From IMG/VR virus record IMGVR_UViG_3300048839_001229, positions 1 to 27,909 of that record: 27,909 nucleotides of DNA, one strand, 5' to 3'. Positions 3,207-26,646 of the stretch are shown here, piece after piece (the stretch's first letter is position 1; every line of letters starts with the position of its first letter). This DNA comes from a virus. A model generated the notes under the pieces. That model made no database searches, was not told the origin of the DNA, and saw only the letters and a program-made list of their open reading frames with translations. Both the position numbers and the translations under genes were made by a program.

Positions 3207-4178
3207 TCAGGCCTTCATGACGCCCTGGAGGCTGCGGTTCGAGCAGGTCAGGTTGCCCATCCACAGCACCGGAACCACGGCGGCGTCCTGGTTGGTCGGA
3301 CGGAGTTCGTCCATCACGGCCATGTCAGCGTCCTTGTGGACGACGAGTTCCAGGTAGTCGGTGTTCAGGAAGTACGCCGAGTTGGTCGGAATACCGCTGC
3401 CGCCGTCGAAGATCACGTCCGCGTTCTTGTACTTCAGGGACACGAAGCCGGCGTTGGCCTTGGTCTCGTCGGTGTAGCGCTTGAGGGAGAGCTGCGACTG
3501 CTCGAAGAGCGTGAAGTAGTTGTTGTCCATCACGATCAGGTCGGGCTGGTCGTCGCCGCGGGTGAGGGCCAGCCAGAGCGGAAGCATCAGGCTTTCCATC
3601 GTGGTCGGGCCAGGGGTAATGGCGGCGCCACCTTGGAGCGGGGCCGCAGCGGACTGAACCTTGTTGCGCCAGAACGTCCAGGTCGACGAGTCGATGCCGC
3701 CGATCGTGCCGGTGCCTGCGTTGGCGACAATGGCCTGCAGGCCGTTGACCTGGTTGGCGAGCGTGCCGTCGCTGTACATGTCGGCGGAGAAGTTGTTCTT
3801 GAACGTGCGGATGGCGTTCTTGACGCGGGACTTCACCAGGTTGATGATGCGACTGTCACCGGCGTTGGTGCGGAGTTCGAGGCCGCTGGCAGTGACGTTG
3901 ATGGCGATCTGGCGCCACTGGTATTCGGCCGCGGAGATCACGTCGCTCGCGCCGATGTTCAGCACGTCATAGCCGCTGTAACGCTGATAGGTCGCGTTCT
4001 CGGCGTAGTCGAGCGGGGTGACGATGGACAGGCCGCCGTCTTCCTTGCGCACCTGCTTCTTGTCGTAGATCCGGCGGAGCAGGGCGTTGTTCTTGGAAAC
4101 GTTGTCGGTGATGTCCTTGCGGTGCTTGCGGAAGGTCGTCGAGACCAGTTCCGTGAAGACTGCGTTCGGAGAGGGCAT
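3207..4178 (-). CDS. Major capsid protein
   Basis: The 323-residue product starts MPSPNAVFTELVSTTFRKH and has AGGAG seven bases before its ATG. It contains LSIVTPLDYAENATYQRYSG, then SAAEYQWRQIAINVTASG and NFSADMYSDGTLANQVNGLQ, a pattern I know from podovirus-type major capsid proteins whose fold is of the HK97 group. The C-terminal part has NSAYFLNTDYLELVVHKDAD, typical of the region that packs at the subunit edge. The position between scaffold and a small head gene fits. Codon use is strongly biased to C- and G-ending codons, as expected for an abundantly made protein, and strong hairpins bound the gene downstream. The product should assemble into the procapsid around the scaffold. Confidence 0.93.
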   Translation of the reverse strand: MPSPNAVFTELVSTTFRKHRKDITDNVSKNNALLRRIYDKKQVRKEDGGLSIVTPLDYAENATYQRYSGYDVLNIGASDVISAAEYQWRQIAINVTASGLELRTNAGDSRIINLVKSRVKNAIRTFKNNFSADMYSDGTLANQVNGLQAIVANAGTGTIGGIDSSTWTFWRNKVQSAAAPLQGGAAITPGPTTMESLMLPLWLALTRGDDQPDLIVMDNNYFTLFEQSQLSLKRYTDETKANAGFVSLKYKNADVIFDGGSGIPTNSAYFLNTDYLELVVHKDADMAVMDELRPTNQDAAVVPVLWMGNLTCSNRSLQGVMKA

Positions 4179-13030: not shown

Positions 13031-13579
13031 ATGGCACGTAACGCACAAATCGCGGTTTCCCGCGTCGGTTTCGACGAACTGGTTTTCACGTTCGCCGATG
13101 GGCAGGATCTCCGCATTGACGCGGGGAAGCTCACGAATGACATCCGCCACGAAGCCATTATGCATGGCCTCAAGCAGAAGATCGGTGACGCGGCCGCTAT
13201 CGGCCGGAACCCGGAAACCGGCCGCTCGGCCACGCTCTCCGACAAGCGTGCTGCGATGCGCGCCGTCATTGAACGGCTCCAGGCCGGTTCATGGAATGCC
13301 GAGCGCGGGGAGGGTGGCGCACCGGCAGGCGGGTTGCTGTTCGCGGCCCTGGTGCGGATGTACGACGGGAAAAAGACCGAGGAGGATATCCGCGAGTTCC
13401 TCGCAGGGAAGGACGACAAACAGAAGGCCGCGCTGCGGAAGAATCCGCGAGTTGCCGAGATCATTGAACAGATCAAGGCGGAGCGCGCCGCCAACGGCGA
13501 CGACGGTGAGGAGCCCGGTGCGGAGCTGCTCAACGAGCTGGACGGGCTCGACGGCGACGACGAGAGCGCGGAGGGCTGA
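13031..13579 (+). CDS. Paralogue A of a duplicated phage protein family
   Basis: The 182-residue product starts MARNAQIAVSRVGFDELVFT, with GGAGG seven bases upstream in the repeated leader. It aligns along most of its length with the 181-residue product at 16963. Both carry a beta-rich N-terminus, then an LxxGxW segment (IERLQAGSWNAERGE here, IDRLYNGEWGVRRE there), then AALRKNPRVAEIIEQIKAER matching VALRNNPKVKPIVDRIESEK. Both end in an acidic LLxEL tail (AELLNELDGL). The function is unknown. Strand-rich start, helical middle and acidic tail would suit a DNA- or protein-binding phage factor, but this is inference. Confidence 0.85.
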   Translation: MARNAQIAVSRVGFDELVFTFADGQDLRIDAGKLTNDIRHEAIMHGLKQKIGDAAAIGRNPETGRSATLSDKRAAMRAVIERLQAGSWNAERGEGGAPAGGLLFAALVRMYDGKKTEEDIREFLAGKDDKQKAALRKNPRVAEIIEQIKAERAANGDDGEEPGAELLNELDGLDGDDESAEG

Positions 13580-16909: not shown

Positions 16910-16962
16910 TTCCTTTCAATTGCCTGCCAACCGCAAAGCGCCAAAGGCGCATGGAGATCAAA

Positions 16963-17508
16963 ATGGCCAAGCAAGAACCCACCGTGGAAACCGTCACCAT
17001 GACTGACGGTCGTGTCGTCGACTTCGCCGGCAAGCGCAAGCTGCTCAAGGAAGCCATCGAAACCGCTGGCGGCGAAGTCCAGATCCGCCTGGACTTCCGC
17101 AACGGCGAAACCCGCCTCTTCACCATCCCGCACGCCATGCTGAACAAGTTCGCCGCCCACGGCGCCGAGCAGAAGCTCGGTGACGAGATCGCCGGCCTGG
17201 ACGATATCGAAGACTGCGTGCTCGCCGTCGACAACCTGATCGACCGCCTTTACAACGGCGAGTGGGGCGTCCGCCGCGAAGCGAATGGCATGGCCGGCAC
17301 CTCCGTCCTGGTCCGCGCCCTGGTCGAGCACACCGGCAAGACCGTCGAGGCGATCAAGGCCTTCCTCGCCAACAAGTCCCAGGCCGAGAAGGTCGCCCTG
17401 CGCAACAACCCGAAGGTCAAGCCCATCGTCGATCGCATCGAGAGCGAGAAGGCTGCGAAGAAGTCGTCCGTCGACACCGACGCCCTGCTCGACGAGCTGG
17501 CCGTCTAA
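16963..17508 (+). CDS. Paralogue B of a duplicated phage protein family, probably highly expressed
   Basis: ATG 16963 is preferred because GGAG stands six bases upstream; an in-frame ATG at 16951 lies on top of that site. The 181-residue product starts MAKQEPTVETVTMTDGRVVD. It aligns with the product at 13031 through the LxxGxW segment (RLYNGEWGVRRE), the conserved VALRNNPKVKPIVDRIESEK helix and the C-terminal LLxEL tail (TDALLDELAV). Codons are strongly biased to C- and G-ending forms. The gene has its own promoter, a protective 5' hairpin and a strong terminator, which together point to an abundant product. The function is unknown. Confidence 0.88.
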   Translation: MAKQEPTVETVTMTDGRVVDFAGKRKLLKEAIETAGGEVQIRLDFRNGETRLFTIPHAMLNKFAAHGAEQKLGDEIAGLDDIEDCVLAVDNLIDRLYNGEWGVRREANGMAGTSVLVRALVEHTGKTVEAIKAFLANKSQAEKVALRNNPKVKPIVDRIESEKAAKKSSVDTDALLDELAV

Positions 17509-20321: not shown

Positions 20322-21683
20322 ATGTCACAAGACCTGAGCATGACGACCGACTATCCCGAAGAGTTGGCCGCATTCGAGCCGCTGCCCAAGCCGGTTTCGC
20401 CTGACAGCCTTCCCCCGGCGAAGCCGATGCCGAACCTCCAGCAAGGAACGGCGATCGAGAAGATGCTGGATTTCCTCGAAGACCCGTCGGCGAGGTTCTT
20501 CCTCCTCTCCGGCTATGCCGGGACGGGGAAAACCTTCTGCATCCAGCACCTGATCTCCAAGGTCCGCGGCCGGATGATCTTCACCGCCCCGACGAACAAG
20601 GCGACGAAGGTCATTCGCGATTCCCTTTCGTCCTCGGAATACAAGCCCGAATGCCGCACCATCTATTCGCTCCTGGGCTTGCGGCTTGAGGCCAACGGGG
20701 AAGTCAAGGAACTCGCGGTCCCGGAAGACCCGATCGACCTGACCCAATACCGCGCAGTCATCGTGGACGAAGCCTCGATGATCAGCTCCCTGCTCTTCGA
20801 GCACATCGCAAAGACGGCCAACGCGCAGAACTTGAAGTTCATCTTCATGGGCGATCCCGCGCAGCTCCCGCCGGTCAAGGAACTCCGCTCGCCGGTCTGG
20901 GGCGCGGCGCATTCCGTGGCGGAGCTGACTCAAGTCATGCGGTATGACAACCAGCTCCTTCGGCTCGCCACCGCTCTCCGCAAGGTCGTCGATCACCCTG
21001 CGCCGTCGGTTAAGCTCGAATCCGACAATGCCGGAGGCGAAGGGGTTTGGCGGCTGTCCTCCGGCGAGTTCGAGCAGCGCATCCTCGAAGCGGCGGACGC
21101 CGGGCTGTTCAGCCGGCCGAACTGCGCAAAGCTCGTTGCGTGGAGGAATGTGACGGTAGATGACTGGAATCGCCGCATCCGGGCCAGGATTTTTTCCAGT
21201 CCATCTGAGCTCTGGCTCCCCGAAGACCGCATCATCGTGATGGAGCCGGCGAAGGACCTGAACGATGAAATCCAGGCCACCACGGATGACGAAGGCCGGG
21301 TGAATCGCGTCGAGGAAGCCTGGCACCCGACATACGGTGAGTTCAAGTGCTACCGCCTGTCAGTCACCCTCGATGACGGGAAGCCTATCATCCTCTGGAC
21401 TCTCCACCCGGAATGGGAAGCTGCCGCCGCACGGAAGGCGGAGGAACTCGCCGCAGCAGCTCGCGCCAATCGCCGCCTGTGGGGGAGGTTTTGGGATTTC
21501 AAGGAGACCTTCCACCGCATCCGGCACGCCTACGCGATTACAGCTCACCGCGCGCAGGGCTCGACCTACGATACGGCCTTCGTGGATTGGCGGGATATCC
21601 TCCTAAACCGTAATCGCGGTGAAGCCTTCCGCTGCCTTTACGTCGCCTGCACCCGCCCGCGGACACGGCTCTTCCTCAACTAA
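20322..21683 (+). CDS. SF1B DNA helicase, RecD2/Dda-like
   Basis: The 453-residue product has Walker A GYAGTGKT at 64-71 and motif Ia TAPTNKAT from 88. Walker B is VIVDEASM with DE at 149-150, and motif III is GDPAQLPPV at 177-185. Near the C-terminus stand ITAHRAQGSTYD (motif V) and YVACTRPRTRLFL (motif VI). This set defines a 5'-3' SF1B helicase of the RecD2/Dda type, which in phages loads or moves at replication forks and removes proteins from DNA. About 40 Pro-rich residues come before the ATPase core. GAGG seven bases upstream supports ATG 20322. It is the likely replicative or recombination helicase of the phage. Confidence 0.92.
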   Translation: MSQDLSMTTDYPEELAAFEPLPKPVSPDSLPPAKPMPNLQQGTAIEKMLDFLEDPSARFFLLSGYAGTGKTFCIQHLISKVRGRMIFTAPTNKATKVIRDSLSSSEYKPECRTIYSLLGLRLEANGEVKELAVPEDPIDLTQYRAVIVDEASMISSLLFEHIAKTANAQNLKFIFMGDPAQLPPVKELRSPVWGAAHSVAELTQVMRYDNQLLRLATALRKVVDHPAPSVKLESDNAGGEGVWRLSSGEFEQRILEAADAGLFSRPNCAKLVAWRNVTVDDWNRRIRARIFSSPSELWLPEDRIIVMEPAKDLNDEIQATTDDEGRVNRVEEAWHPTYGEFKCYRLSVTLDDGKPIILWTLHPEWEAAAARKAEELAAAARANRRLWGRFWDFKETFHRIRHAYAITAHRAQGSTYDTAFVDWRDILLNRNRGEAFRCLYVACTRPRTRLFLN

Positions 21684-21759
21684 CTTCCTCGCGCGGGGTT
21701 GCGCGCCTGCTCGCCGGAGGCTACCATACCCCCGGCACCACCACTACAAGGATACCATC

Positions 21760-21975
21760 ATGACCGACCTTTCCACCCAAGTGCAACTGTGGCGGCAGAA
21801 AGCCCGCGAAGGCACGCTCACCCAAGATGACATGAAAGAGGCGCTGATCGCTCTGCGCGCGTCCCGGCAGGCGGCAGGGGCCGTCAGCGCCACTTCCCGT
21901 GCGGCGAAAGGCGAGGCTCGCGCGAAAAAGGCTATCAACAGCGATAGCTTGCTGAACGAACTCGACAACCTGTGA
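21760..21975 (+). CDS. Small phage protein with C-terminal LLxEL tail (71 residues)
   Basis: ATG 21760 has AAGGA seven bases upstream; the longer open frame overlaps the helicase gene and has no ribosome site. The product reads MTDLSTQVQLWRQKAREGTL, then TQDDMKEALIALRASRQAAG, a Ser/Ala/Lys-rich linker and the end INSDSLLNELDNL. Two helices, a flexible basic linker and an acidic hydrophobic tail suggest an adaptor. The tail resembles the ends of the two paralogues at 13031 and 16963. I recall similar small proteins in other phages, with no known function. Confidence 0.82.
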   Translation: MTDLSTQVQLWRQKAREGTLTQDDMKEALIALRASRQAAGAVSATSRAAKGEARAKKAINSDSLLNELDNL

Positions 21976-24398: not shown

Positions 24399-24845
24399 AT
24401 GTTCAATCCCGACCAGTTCCTCGACATGGCCATCAACGACTCCAACAGCACCCAGACCGTTCCGGTGCCTGTCGGGGAGTACACGGCCATCGCCGGGGAA
24501 GTCAAGTGCCGCCAGTGGCAGTCCAAGGCCGATCCCTCCAAGTCCGGTCTCACCCTCGACGTGACCTGGGAGCTCGACGACGCGGCGGTCAAGCAGCTCC
24601 TCGGCCGTGACAAGGTGACCGTCAAGCAGGGCATCATGCTCGATCTCACCGATTCCGGCGGACTGGACATGGGCAAGGGCCGCAACGTCGGCCTCGGTCG
24701 CCTGCGCGAGGCGCTGAACCTCAACCAGCCGGGGCAGTCCTTCTCCTTCTCCATGATCCCCGGCCGGCTGGCGAAGGTCTCGGTCAGCCACCGCATCGAC
24801 GGCGAGAACATCTACGCTGAGGTCAAGGCCGTGGCCCGCATCTAA
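24399..24845 (+). CDS. Probable phage ssDNA-binding protein (DUF669-like)
   Basis: The 148-residue product starts MFNPDQFLDMAINDSNSTQT. It has VPVGEYTAIAGEVKCRQWQS, then LTLDVTWELDDAAVKQLLG, KQGIMLDLTDSGGLDMGKGR and NVGLGRLREALNLNQPGQSF. I know this pattern as DUF669, a small beta-rich phage family usually found beside recombinases and thought to bind ssDNA. Codons are as strongly biased as in the capsid gene, suggesting high expression. It lies behind the Sak4-like gene with its own possible promoter. GGAG about 8-9 bases upstream supports the start. An acidic C-terminal tail, common in SSBs, is absent. Confidence 0.8.
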   Translation: MFNPDQFLDMAINDSNSTQTVPVPVGEYTAIAGEVKCRQWQSKADPSKSGLTLDVTWELDDAAVKQLLGRDKVTVKQGIMLDLTDSGGLDMGKGRNVGLGRLREALNLNQPGQSFSFSMIPGRLAKVSVSHRIDGENIYAEVKAVARI

Positions 24846-24857
24846 TCGGCCGGCGGT

Positions 24858-25082
24858 TTAAGCGTGGCCCCCGGCTATACGGGGGCGCTTGAAGAGAGCG
24901 GACTCGACGTAAACCACCTCGAACGTCTCAGATGCCGGGCAGTGGTACAGGCGTAACCTGAGCTAGAGAGTCCGCTCCCTTCAAGCCCCGGCACCGCGAT
25001 CCCCATAGCTTCTTGTCGCGGGGCCGACGCCTCCCGGTCCTGCCGGGGCTTCCCTCAATCACGAAAGGCGCTTGCCCGTGAT
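24858..25082 (+). ncRNA. Candidate structured RNA with three-way junction and complementary loops
   Basis: A hairpin at 24867-24886 (7 GC pairs) is followed by a 19-bp stem P1 (24887-24905 with 24968-24986, one A-C mismatch). P1 encloses P2 (GACGT 24906-24910 with ACGTC 24923-24927) and P3 (TCAG with CTGA, then ATGCC 24932-24936 with GGCGT 24950-24954). The P2 loop holds ACCAC (24913-24917) and the P3 loop GTGGT (24942-24946), which are complementary. Three more stems follow: CCGCGA/TCGCGG, CCCGG/CCGGG and ATCACG/CGTGAT. There is no open frame with a ribosome site. The strand is assumed from the flanking genes. Confidence 0.6.
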
Positions 25083-25275: not shown

Positions 25276-26646
25276 ATGAACACCGTCCAGCTCTCCTCCA
25301 TCATCATCAAAGCCAACCGCCAGCGCCAGGAATTCGACCCCGAGGCGCTGCAGGAACTCAGGAACTCCATCGAGGATCGAGGCCTCCTTCACGCCCCTGT
25401 CCTCCGCCGAGAAGGCGAGGATTGGGTACTCGTTGCCGGGGAGCGCAGGCTCAAGGCTATCGAGGAGATTTTCGCCCTTGGCGGGCAATTCACCTACAAC
25501 GGCGAGATCTTCGATAACGGCTACGTCCCCTTCACCGACCTCGGCTCGCTGTCCCTCCTTGAAGCCGAAGAAGCCGAACTCGACGAAAACCTCAAGCGCC
25601 GTGACCTCACCTGGCAAGAGCACGCGGCCGCTGTCGCCCGCCTCCACGCCCTGCGGCAAGCGCAAAAGGAGCAGACCTACGCGGAGCTCCCGCTTGCCAC
25701 GCAACGGGTTACACCTCCACCCGCCCAGACCGTCGCCGACACTGCCGAAGAGCTTACTGGCCGACGCGACGGCGGGTATCAAGACACCGTCCGGAAGGAA
25801 ATCCTCGTTGCGAAATACCTTGACAATCCTGTCGTCGCCAAGGCCAAATCCGCCGACGAGGCTTTCAAGCTCCTGCGGAAAGAGGAAGAACGGCAACGCA
25901 ACATCAAGCTTGCGGCAACGGTCGGCGCCACTTTCAATGCCGGCGAGCATCAACTCTTTCAGACGGATTTCCGTGAGTGGATGAAGCTCCCCGAAGCACA
26001 AGCTCGGTTCGACGTGATCCTGACCGATCCGCCTTATGGCATGGGGGCTGACGGTTTCGGCGATGCCGCGGGAAAGCTCACTGGCATCACCCATCAATAC
26101 GACGACTCCTACGAGACGTGGCAAGCTCTCATGCGGGAGTTTGCGCCGCTCTCCTTCGCCGTTACCAAACCCCAAGCCCATGCCTACGTGTTCTGCGATT
26201 TCGACCGCTTTCACGAACTCAAGTCCTTGATGGAAACCGCCGGGTGGTATGTCTTCCGCACACCGCTGGTCGTTCACAAGCTCAATTCCGGTAGAGTCCC
26301 CCTTCCTGACATGGGGCCGCGCCGCCAGTACGAGATCATTCTCTACGCGATCAAGGGGAAAAAGCCCGTCACGCATATCTATCCTGATGTTGTGGCAGTA
26401 TCCGGCGACGACAACCTCGGTCACGGCGCACAAAAGCCTGTTGCGCTGTTCCAGAACCTTCTCCAGCGCAGTGTACGGCCAGGGGACGAAGTCCTTGACG
26501 TTTGCGCTGGAACGGGGGTAATTTTCCCTGCGGCCCATACCTACAAGGTCAAAGCTGTTGGACTGGAAAAGGAAGCGGAATACTACGGGATCGCGCTCAA
26601 GCGCCTGGAGGATCTCCGGCAAGCGGAACAGCCCGCGCTCTTCTAA
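25276..26646 (+). CDS. ParB-like domain fused to DNA methyltransferase
   Basis: I use ATG 25276, because the ParB homology starts there (MNTVQLSSIIIKANRQRQEF); the ribosome site is weak (CGGAAA). Residues 1-130 form a ParB/Srx-like domain with VLVAGERRLKAI near 52-62. A linker of charged helices follows. The methyltransferase has DPPYGMG at 251-257 and the later AdoMet motif LDVCAGTGV around 407-415, before which GHGAQKPVALFQNLL stands. DPPY before the AdoMet motif is the beta-class order of amino-methyltransferases (N6-adenine or N4-cytosine). It may protect phage DNA from host restriction, with the ParB part guiding DNA binding. Confidence 0.88.
   Translation: MNTVQLSSIIIKANRQRQEFDPEALQELRNSIEDRGLLHAPVLRREGEDWVLVAGERRLKAIEEIFALGGQFTYNGEIFDNGYVPFTDLGSLSLLEAEEAELDENLKRRDLTWQEHAAAVARLHALRQAQKEQTYAELPLATQRVTPPPAQTVADTAEELTGRRDGGYQDTVRKEILVAKYLDNPVVAKAKSADEAFKLLRKEEERQRNIKLAATVGATFNAGEHQLFQTDFREWMKLPEAQARFDVILTDPPYGMGADGFGDAAGKLTGITHQYDDSYETWQALMREFAPLSFAVTKPQAHAYVFCDFDRFHELKSLMETAGWYVFRTPLVVHKLNSGRVPLPDMGPRRQYEIILYAIKGKKPVTHIYPDVVAVSGDDNLGHGAQKPVALFQNLLQRSVRPGDEVLDVCAGTGVIFPAAHTYKVKAVGLEKEAEYYGIALKRLEDLRQAEQPALF

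Follow-up and report, generated by a model that had tools for sequence, protein, structure and literature searches.

The window, meaning the whole 27,909-nt stretch of viral DNA analysed here (IMG/VR record IMGVR_UViG_3300048839_001229), holds a candidate structured RNA in a 430-nt gap between the gene for a 148-aa protein and the gene for a ParB-domain methyltransferase (Table 1). The gap lies in a replication/recombination module with a Dda-like helicase, a PD-(D/E)XK nuclease, a Sak4-like annealing ATPase and the 148-aa protein, which extends to the ParB-methyltransferase, DUF3310 and a UDG with DNA polymerase/exonuclease domains (Pfam, PHROGs). The name DUF669, given to the upstream gene in an earlier note on this DNA, is weakly supported: its Pfam model is touched by 6 of 17 relatives (best E 0.0097) and gives no match for the window's own copy, and we write DUF669-like throughout. 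Neither a sigma-70-like promoter nor a U-run terminator was found at the window copy of the RNA, and terminator prediction on the + strand called none in the window at the hairpin P4. Elsewhere in the window, a similar tail ends three separate proteins (...LLNELDGL, ...DALLDELAV and ...DSLLNELDNL; 13031-13579, 16951-17508 and 21619-21975), perhaps as a shared docking peptide.

Table 1. Features in and beside the gap that holds the candidate RNA (window coordinates)
Feature	Position	Strand	Basis
Upstream gene, 148-aa DUF669-like protein	24399..24845	+	weak Pfam match in 6/17 relatives
P0 hairpin, stem 24867-24873/24880-24886, loop GCTATA	24860..24890	+	sequence, centroid fold, homologs
P1, 5' strand of closing stem (GCTTGAAGAGAGCGGACTC)	24887..24905	+	fold; two-sided changes across relatives
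1x1 mismatch in P1, A24895.C24978	24895	+	C.C at equivalent place in L002-L008 and L015
P2, 5' strand (ACCAC; ATCAC in L041)	24913..24917	+	compensatory change in L041; MFE fold
P2, 3' strand (GTGGT; GTGAT in L041)	24942..24946	+	compensatory change in L041; MFE fold
P3, small hairpin of nested fold (CAGG cgtaa CCTG)	24948..24960	+	MFE fold; weakly supported
P1, 3' strand (GAGTCCGCTCCCTTCAAGC)	24968..24986	+	fold; model R1 match
P4, long terminator-like hairpin (AAGCCCCGGCA ... TGCCGGGGCTT), CCTCCC inside	24983..25051	+	sequence, homologs
P5, small conserved hairpin CACGAAAGGCGCTTGCCCGTG, separate from RNA	25060..25080	+	sequence and relatives
Downstream gene, ParB_N plus N6/N4 methyltransferase	25276..26646	+	Pfam and PHROGs

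The dominant feature of the gap is the closing stem P1, which spans 19 positions with 18 pairs and one A.C mismatch. P1-type stems in 10 shuffles of the 260 nt reached at most 11.5 pairs, so that the 19-bp stem with a single mismatch described in the earlier note is present and far above the shuffles. The domain it closes (24887-24986) has an MFE of -46.1 kcal/mol with a z of -5.03, a value that 0 of 200 shuffles equalled, and the wider region of 261 nt folds with a z of -3.83.

Relatives of the locus were gathered by searches with the 148-aa protein and with the methyltransferase, giving several dozen distinct ones. In the equivalent gap, after the Sak4/DUF669-like operon and before the ParB-methyltransferase, P1 is retained while its sequence changes on both sides. 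The nearest relative, L041, has a methyltransferase 98% identical to that of the window and DNA 94% identical over 3.1 kb; within the RNA, ACCAC becomes ATCAC together with GTGGT becoming GTGAT, and the other changes retain their pairs as G.U. A more distant set, L002-L007, carries P0 almost letter for letter and P1 in other letters (CTTAAG C AAGGGGATTCGC / GTGAGTCCCCTT C CTTAAG), with a C.C mismatch in place of the window's A.C, and its interior is a clean three-way junction of P1, P2 and P3. L014 has the same interior within a largely different P1, and L008 retains P1 and its mismatch behind a different P0. Stems that vary without compensation, which the earlier note had named as the sign against a structured RNA, are not what this comparison gave: P1 shows compensated changes, as do P2 and P3 in relatives. 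Comparative evidence backs the reading as a structured RNA built around a three-way junction.

The same gap also carries simpler forms. P1 is reduced to a plain hairpin in L015 (where the C.C mismatch is kept), L009, L020 and L023, an ordinary terminator occupies it in other relatives, and long stems enclose different, larger interiors in L282 and L309. These plain and exchanged interiors indicate that the locus often retains a strong stem-loop whose interior is exchangeable; many relatives have nothing more here than a short hairpin or a common terminator, so this group of phages can do without the interior. Among the plain-hairpin versions of P1, those of L016, L017, L026 and L296 share a constant loop, TTATGAG, with varying closing G/C stems. 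L018, L304 and L034 have a further small hairpin, in which the loop is constant (CGCGTAAGTG) and the stems differ (GCCCAC/GTGGGC, CCAGGGC/GCCCTGG). In L304, tRNA-like remnants (GCGGGGATAGCCCAG...GGTTCGAATCCAGCTCCCCGCACCA) stand at the RNA locus, about 50-145 nt past the end of the DUF669-like gene (at 3441), and L309 has them likewise; ARAGORN did not call the remnants of either.

To follow the three-way-junction core beyond this locus, we built a covariance model, R1, from L002, L003, L004, L006, L007 and L014 and ran it on loci preselected by a short loop pattern, with the paired arms mostly outside the pattern. R1 matched four unrelated contigs (L361, L366, L367 and L377) with E from 4e-9 to 2.5e-11, and the other 92 pattern-bearing loci of that scan gave nothing at E up to 1. 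A second model, R2, adds L536 (58 bits); the other pattern-bearing loci in the scan that yielded L536 gave no match at E up to 1. With R2, 1 of 245 genomes of one bacterial family had a core match (L484), which is probably the L377 prophage since score and length are equal; none turned up in 369 genomes picked by class from another group.

In the core alignment of 10 sequences, 95.5% of cells are paired and 16 of 29 pairs have changed on both sides; 0 of 500 shuffles did as well, and slid alignments gave at most 4 such pairs. The five closest members plus L014 by themselves have two-sided changes in 9 of 32 pairs, and in a hand alignment such changes occur in all five P2 pairs and all five P3 pairs. 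Some members are close kin, and we therefore count about five independent core lineages (the L002 group, L014, the L361 group, L377 and L536), to which the window pair and L008 add lineages of P1 only. Read on the + strand, the hand alignment contains G.U in 22 cells versus A.C in 7, an excess that points to an RNA read from that strand. The invariant letters of the core lie largely in loops (UGGUCGAG...CAGAGCCA...UACANA), as would be expected of a binding or tertiary-contact site.

The company that the core keeps is variable. Its neighbours elsewhere are a radical-SAM gene, small genes of unknown function or a gene for 94 aa, and in the unrelated phages it lies upstream of genes and without a U-run. 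RecT or Sak4 occurs within a few kb of it in L361, L367 and L377; around the L536 core, the DNA examined contains no recombination gene, and the 38-kb record of L536 contains no Sak4.

The window's own interior has a best fold in which ACCAC and GTGGT form the nested helix P2, followed by the small P3, whose strands (24948-24951/24957-24960) are kept in L041 with G.U for one G-C. The earlier note had drawn the interior as two hairpins (GACGT/ACGTC and TCAG/CTGA) whose loops carry ACCAC and GTGGT and could kiss, perhaps to join monomers. In the window this two-hairpin fold is about 9.5 kcal/mol worse than the nested one, the kissing pair not being counted, whereas in L041 it is the MFE (-42.9 versus -36.9 for the nested fold). 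The compensated change in L041 fits both folds alike, as ACCAC pairs with GTGGT in each. The core-bearing homologs, on the other hand, form nested P2 and P3 and lack both of those hairpins, and we favour the nested fold for the window because its architecture resembles that of the core members. The two segments are present and able to pair, most likely as strands of an ordinary helix in cis and not as a monomer-joining kissing pair. An RNA that instead kept both hairpins and linked their loops through ACCAC/GTGGT, a kissing-loop or pseudoknotted form that would be compatible with any function, appears unlikely to us.

Whether the window copy belongs to the core family can be judged from the same models. 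Both match its P1 only: R1 over 24889-24984 with 22.0 bits (E 0.0058, unfiltered) and R2 with 21.6 bits (E 0.039 among 27 sources). They skip the interior, and the UGGUCGAG...CAGAGCCA internal loop and a P3 of the CGUACANACG type are not matched in the window. When the interior was aligned to the core, 32 of 1000 shuffles were as good as the best alignment of the window and 9 of 1000 as good as that of L041 (14 comparisons, uncorrected). As an exact 17-mer, the window interior has one match, in L477, which has no wider similarity to the window. The window does have a long P1 with two-sided changes, and it occupies the same genomic gap as L002-L007 and L014, with a DUF669-like gene before and a ParB-methyltransferase after; P1, the preceding P0 hairpin and this position are all that it shares with core members. 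Because its interior is unmatched by the models and marginal in alignment, we do not file the window copy as a core member but regard its locus as homologous, the interior having diverged or been exchanged.

The extra hairpins that the earlier note placed on either side of the domain, P0 and P4, are present. P0 is near-identical ahead of P1 in L002-L007 and L041, and hairpins of other sequence take its place in L008, L009 and L282. Its outer pairs, AAGC/GCTT, overlap the first 4 nt of P1, which the earlier note took for a possible switch; the overlap recurs as AAG/CTT in L002-L007 but is absent in L008 and L014, and a conserved P0/P1 switch is therefore unsupported. P4 has no U-run in the window, whereas in L002-L007 it ends in one. 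The inner segments of P4, AGTTGCC and CTCCCT/CCTCC (anti-Shine-Dalgarno-like), are frequent despite differing stems, being found in the window, L002, L015, L017, L020, L024, L026, L282, L305, L307 and L340.

P5 also stands before the ParB-methyltransferase in relatives without the RNA. Its strict pattern occurs at 14 of 47 relatives' loci versus about 1 expected, with the hairpin form CACGAAAGGCNYTTGCCCGTG, the core GGCANTTGCC and arms that are CACG/CGTG or CATG/CATG, changing together; we saw it in the window, L003, L006, L010, L011, L018, L041, L051, L282, L290, L304, L305, L307, L311 and L340. P5 may serve the ParB-methyltransferase as an operator or parS-like site, or it may be a hairpin at a ribosome site. 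In L002 and L003, an HNH-like open frame (MNPRRYRKIYESRY...CTYCGGKPSCFDHVPPLA) starts exactly at the GTG/ATG that closes a small hairpin of the P5 type.

We propose that the early recombination operon (Sak4, DUF669-like) carries at its 3' end, on the + strand of the window, a compact domain of noncoding RNA about 100 nt long that acts in trans as a stand-alone RNA, a reading to which we give about even weight. In this proposal the long stem P1 would clamp a small, variable interior. In the relatives this interior is a three-way junction, whose P2 has an invariant internal loop (UCGA/AGAG) and whose P3 has an ACANA loop. The domain is flanked by P0 and P4. Since P4 in the relatives is a good intrinsic terminator, the RNA may be transcribed with the operon and then either be released by processing or stay attached, in both cases forming the early transcript's 3' end. 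A stand-alone RNA would present its junction to a partner in trans, either a protein or another RNA. That the core adjoins different genes in other phages speaks against control of any one gene and is what one would expect of an RNA that acts in trans or binds a protein; specific regulation of the ParB-methyltransferase, raised in the earlier note, finds no support in this distribution.

The main rival, which we consider less probable but still credible, is a 3'-end stabiliser or decorated terminator, in which P1 descends from the early operon's intrinsic terminator, the interior is ornamental and the element does no more than end or protect the mRNA. Plain terminator-type or C.C-mismatch hairpins in the same place in L010, L015, L020, L023, L299, L305 and L307 agree with it, as does the U-run of P4 in L002-L007; yet P1 of the window has no U-run, and unrelated phages carry the core, invariant loops included, ahead of genes and again without one. 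The succession in L002-L007 of an aptamer-like junction with invariant loops and, directly after it, a terminator-like hairpin would also suit a riboswitch or other cis-acting regulator of the gene downstream, with the junction sensing a ligand and P4 as expression platform. We think this improbable, because the genes downstream in the unrelated carriers differ (a radical-SAM protein, small unknowns and others), P1 and P4 share only a few nt and so give no evident mutually exclusive fold, and P4 of the window lacks a U-run. An inverted repeat acting at the level of DNA, as a cruciform, origin or recombination site, would adjoin Sak4 recombination genes as observed, and single-stranded DNA hairpins would covary too. 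The excess of G.U over A.C cells on the + strand and the position of the invariant letters, largely in loops, with stem sequences free to change, make such an element similarly improbable.

Returning to the trans-acting RNA, the recurrence of the core in a bacterial genome as well as five unrelated phage contigs, its covariation and its lack of a match in Rfam 15 indicate an undescribed, modular phage RNA family. Tentatively, and with slightly less than even confidence, we describe it as a new noncoding family whose members, about 95 nt long, use a clamp stem to display a three-way junction with an invariant internal loop. Unrelated phages would carry it as a module, the interiors would be swapped at one locus (core, window type, L008 type and plain loop), and its targets in trans would be phage recombination or the host. 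Small structured phage RNAs are poorly catalogued, and gaps such as this one look empty to most annotation pipelines; a family that is backed by covariation, spans several phage lineages and combines invariant loops with exchangeable interiors offers a concrete, testable RNA.

Catalogue searches gave no known counterpart. At the gathering threshold, Rfam 15 matched neither the window copy nor the relatives' RNA, permissive scans of the window copy and L361 gave chance-level matches only, and a tRNA/tmRNA search found none. At the DNA level, the named phages in the collection gave nothing or chance matches to the window region, the L002 core and the L536 core, and fragments of only 19-27 nt to L361. 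L377 weakly matched two Microcystis phages (E 3e-3), but within a coding gene, and from its context the match was judged a coincidence. Plasmids gave chance matches only, and short-motif pattern scans mostly so. A comparison by eye with the cores of K-turns, sheared loops and known ribozymes gave no fit. The literature found consists of general surveys of structured RNAs (PMC8040213, PMC2864571) with no report linkable to the motif; for the papers as for the catalogues, such a lack is not proof that it was never reported.

Three known systems invite comparison. The phi29 packaging RNA (Rfam Phage_pRNA), to which the earlier note likened the architecture, is also a phage RNA with a three-way junction. 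Its Rfam model does not match the window at the gathering score or at E up to 5, the window RNA lies in a replication/recombination region and not at a terminase locus, the complementary segments form a helix in cis in its homologs, and most non-syntenic carriers have the core beside recombination or unknown genes; a packaging role is unlikely. Transcription-attenuating riboswitches resemble L002-L007, where a junction with invariant loops precedes a terminator-like hairpin, but the phage RNA has no evident alternative fold, and in place of a constant class of downstream gene there are different genes in L361, L366, L367, L377 and L536. GOLLD and ROOL, which are large ornate RNAs found in bacteria and phages, gave no Rfam match to the window RNA and, at several hundred nt, are much longer than the ~100 nt domain, with which they share a structured form untied to one gene.
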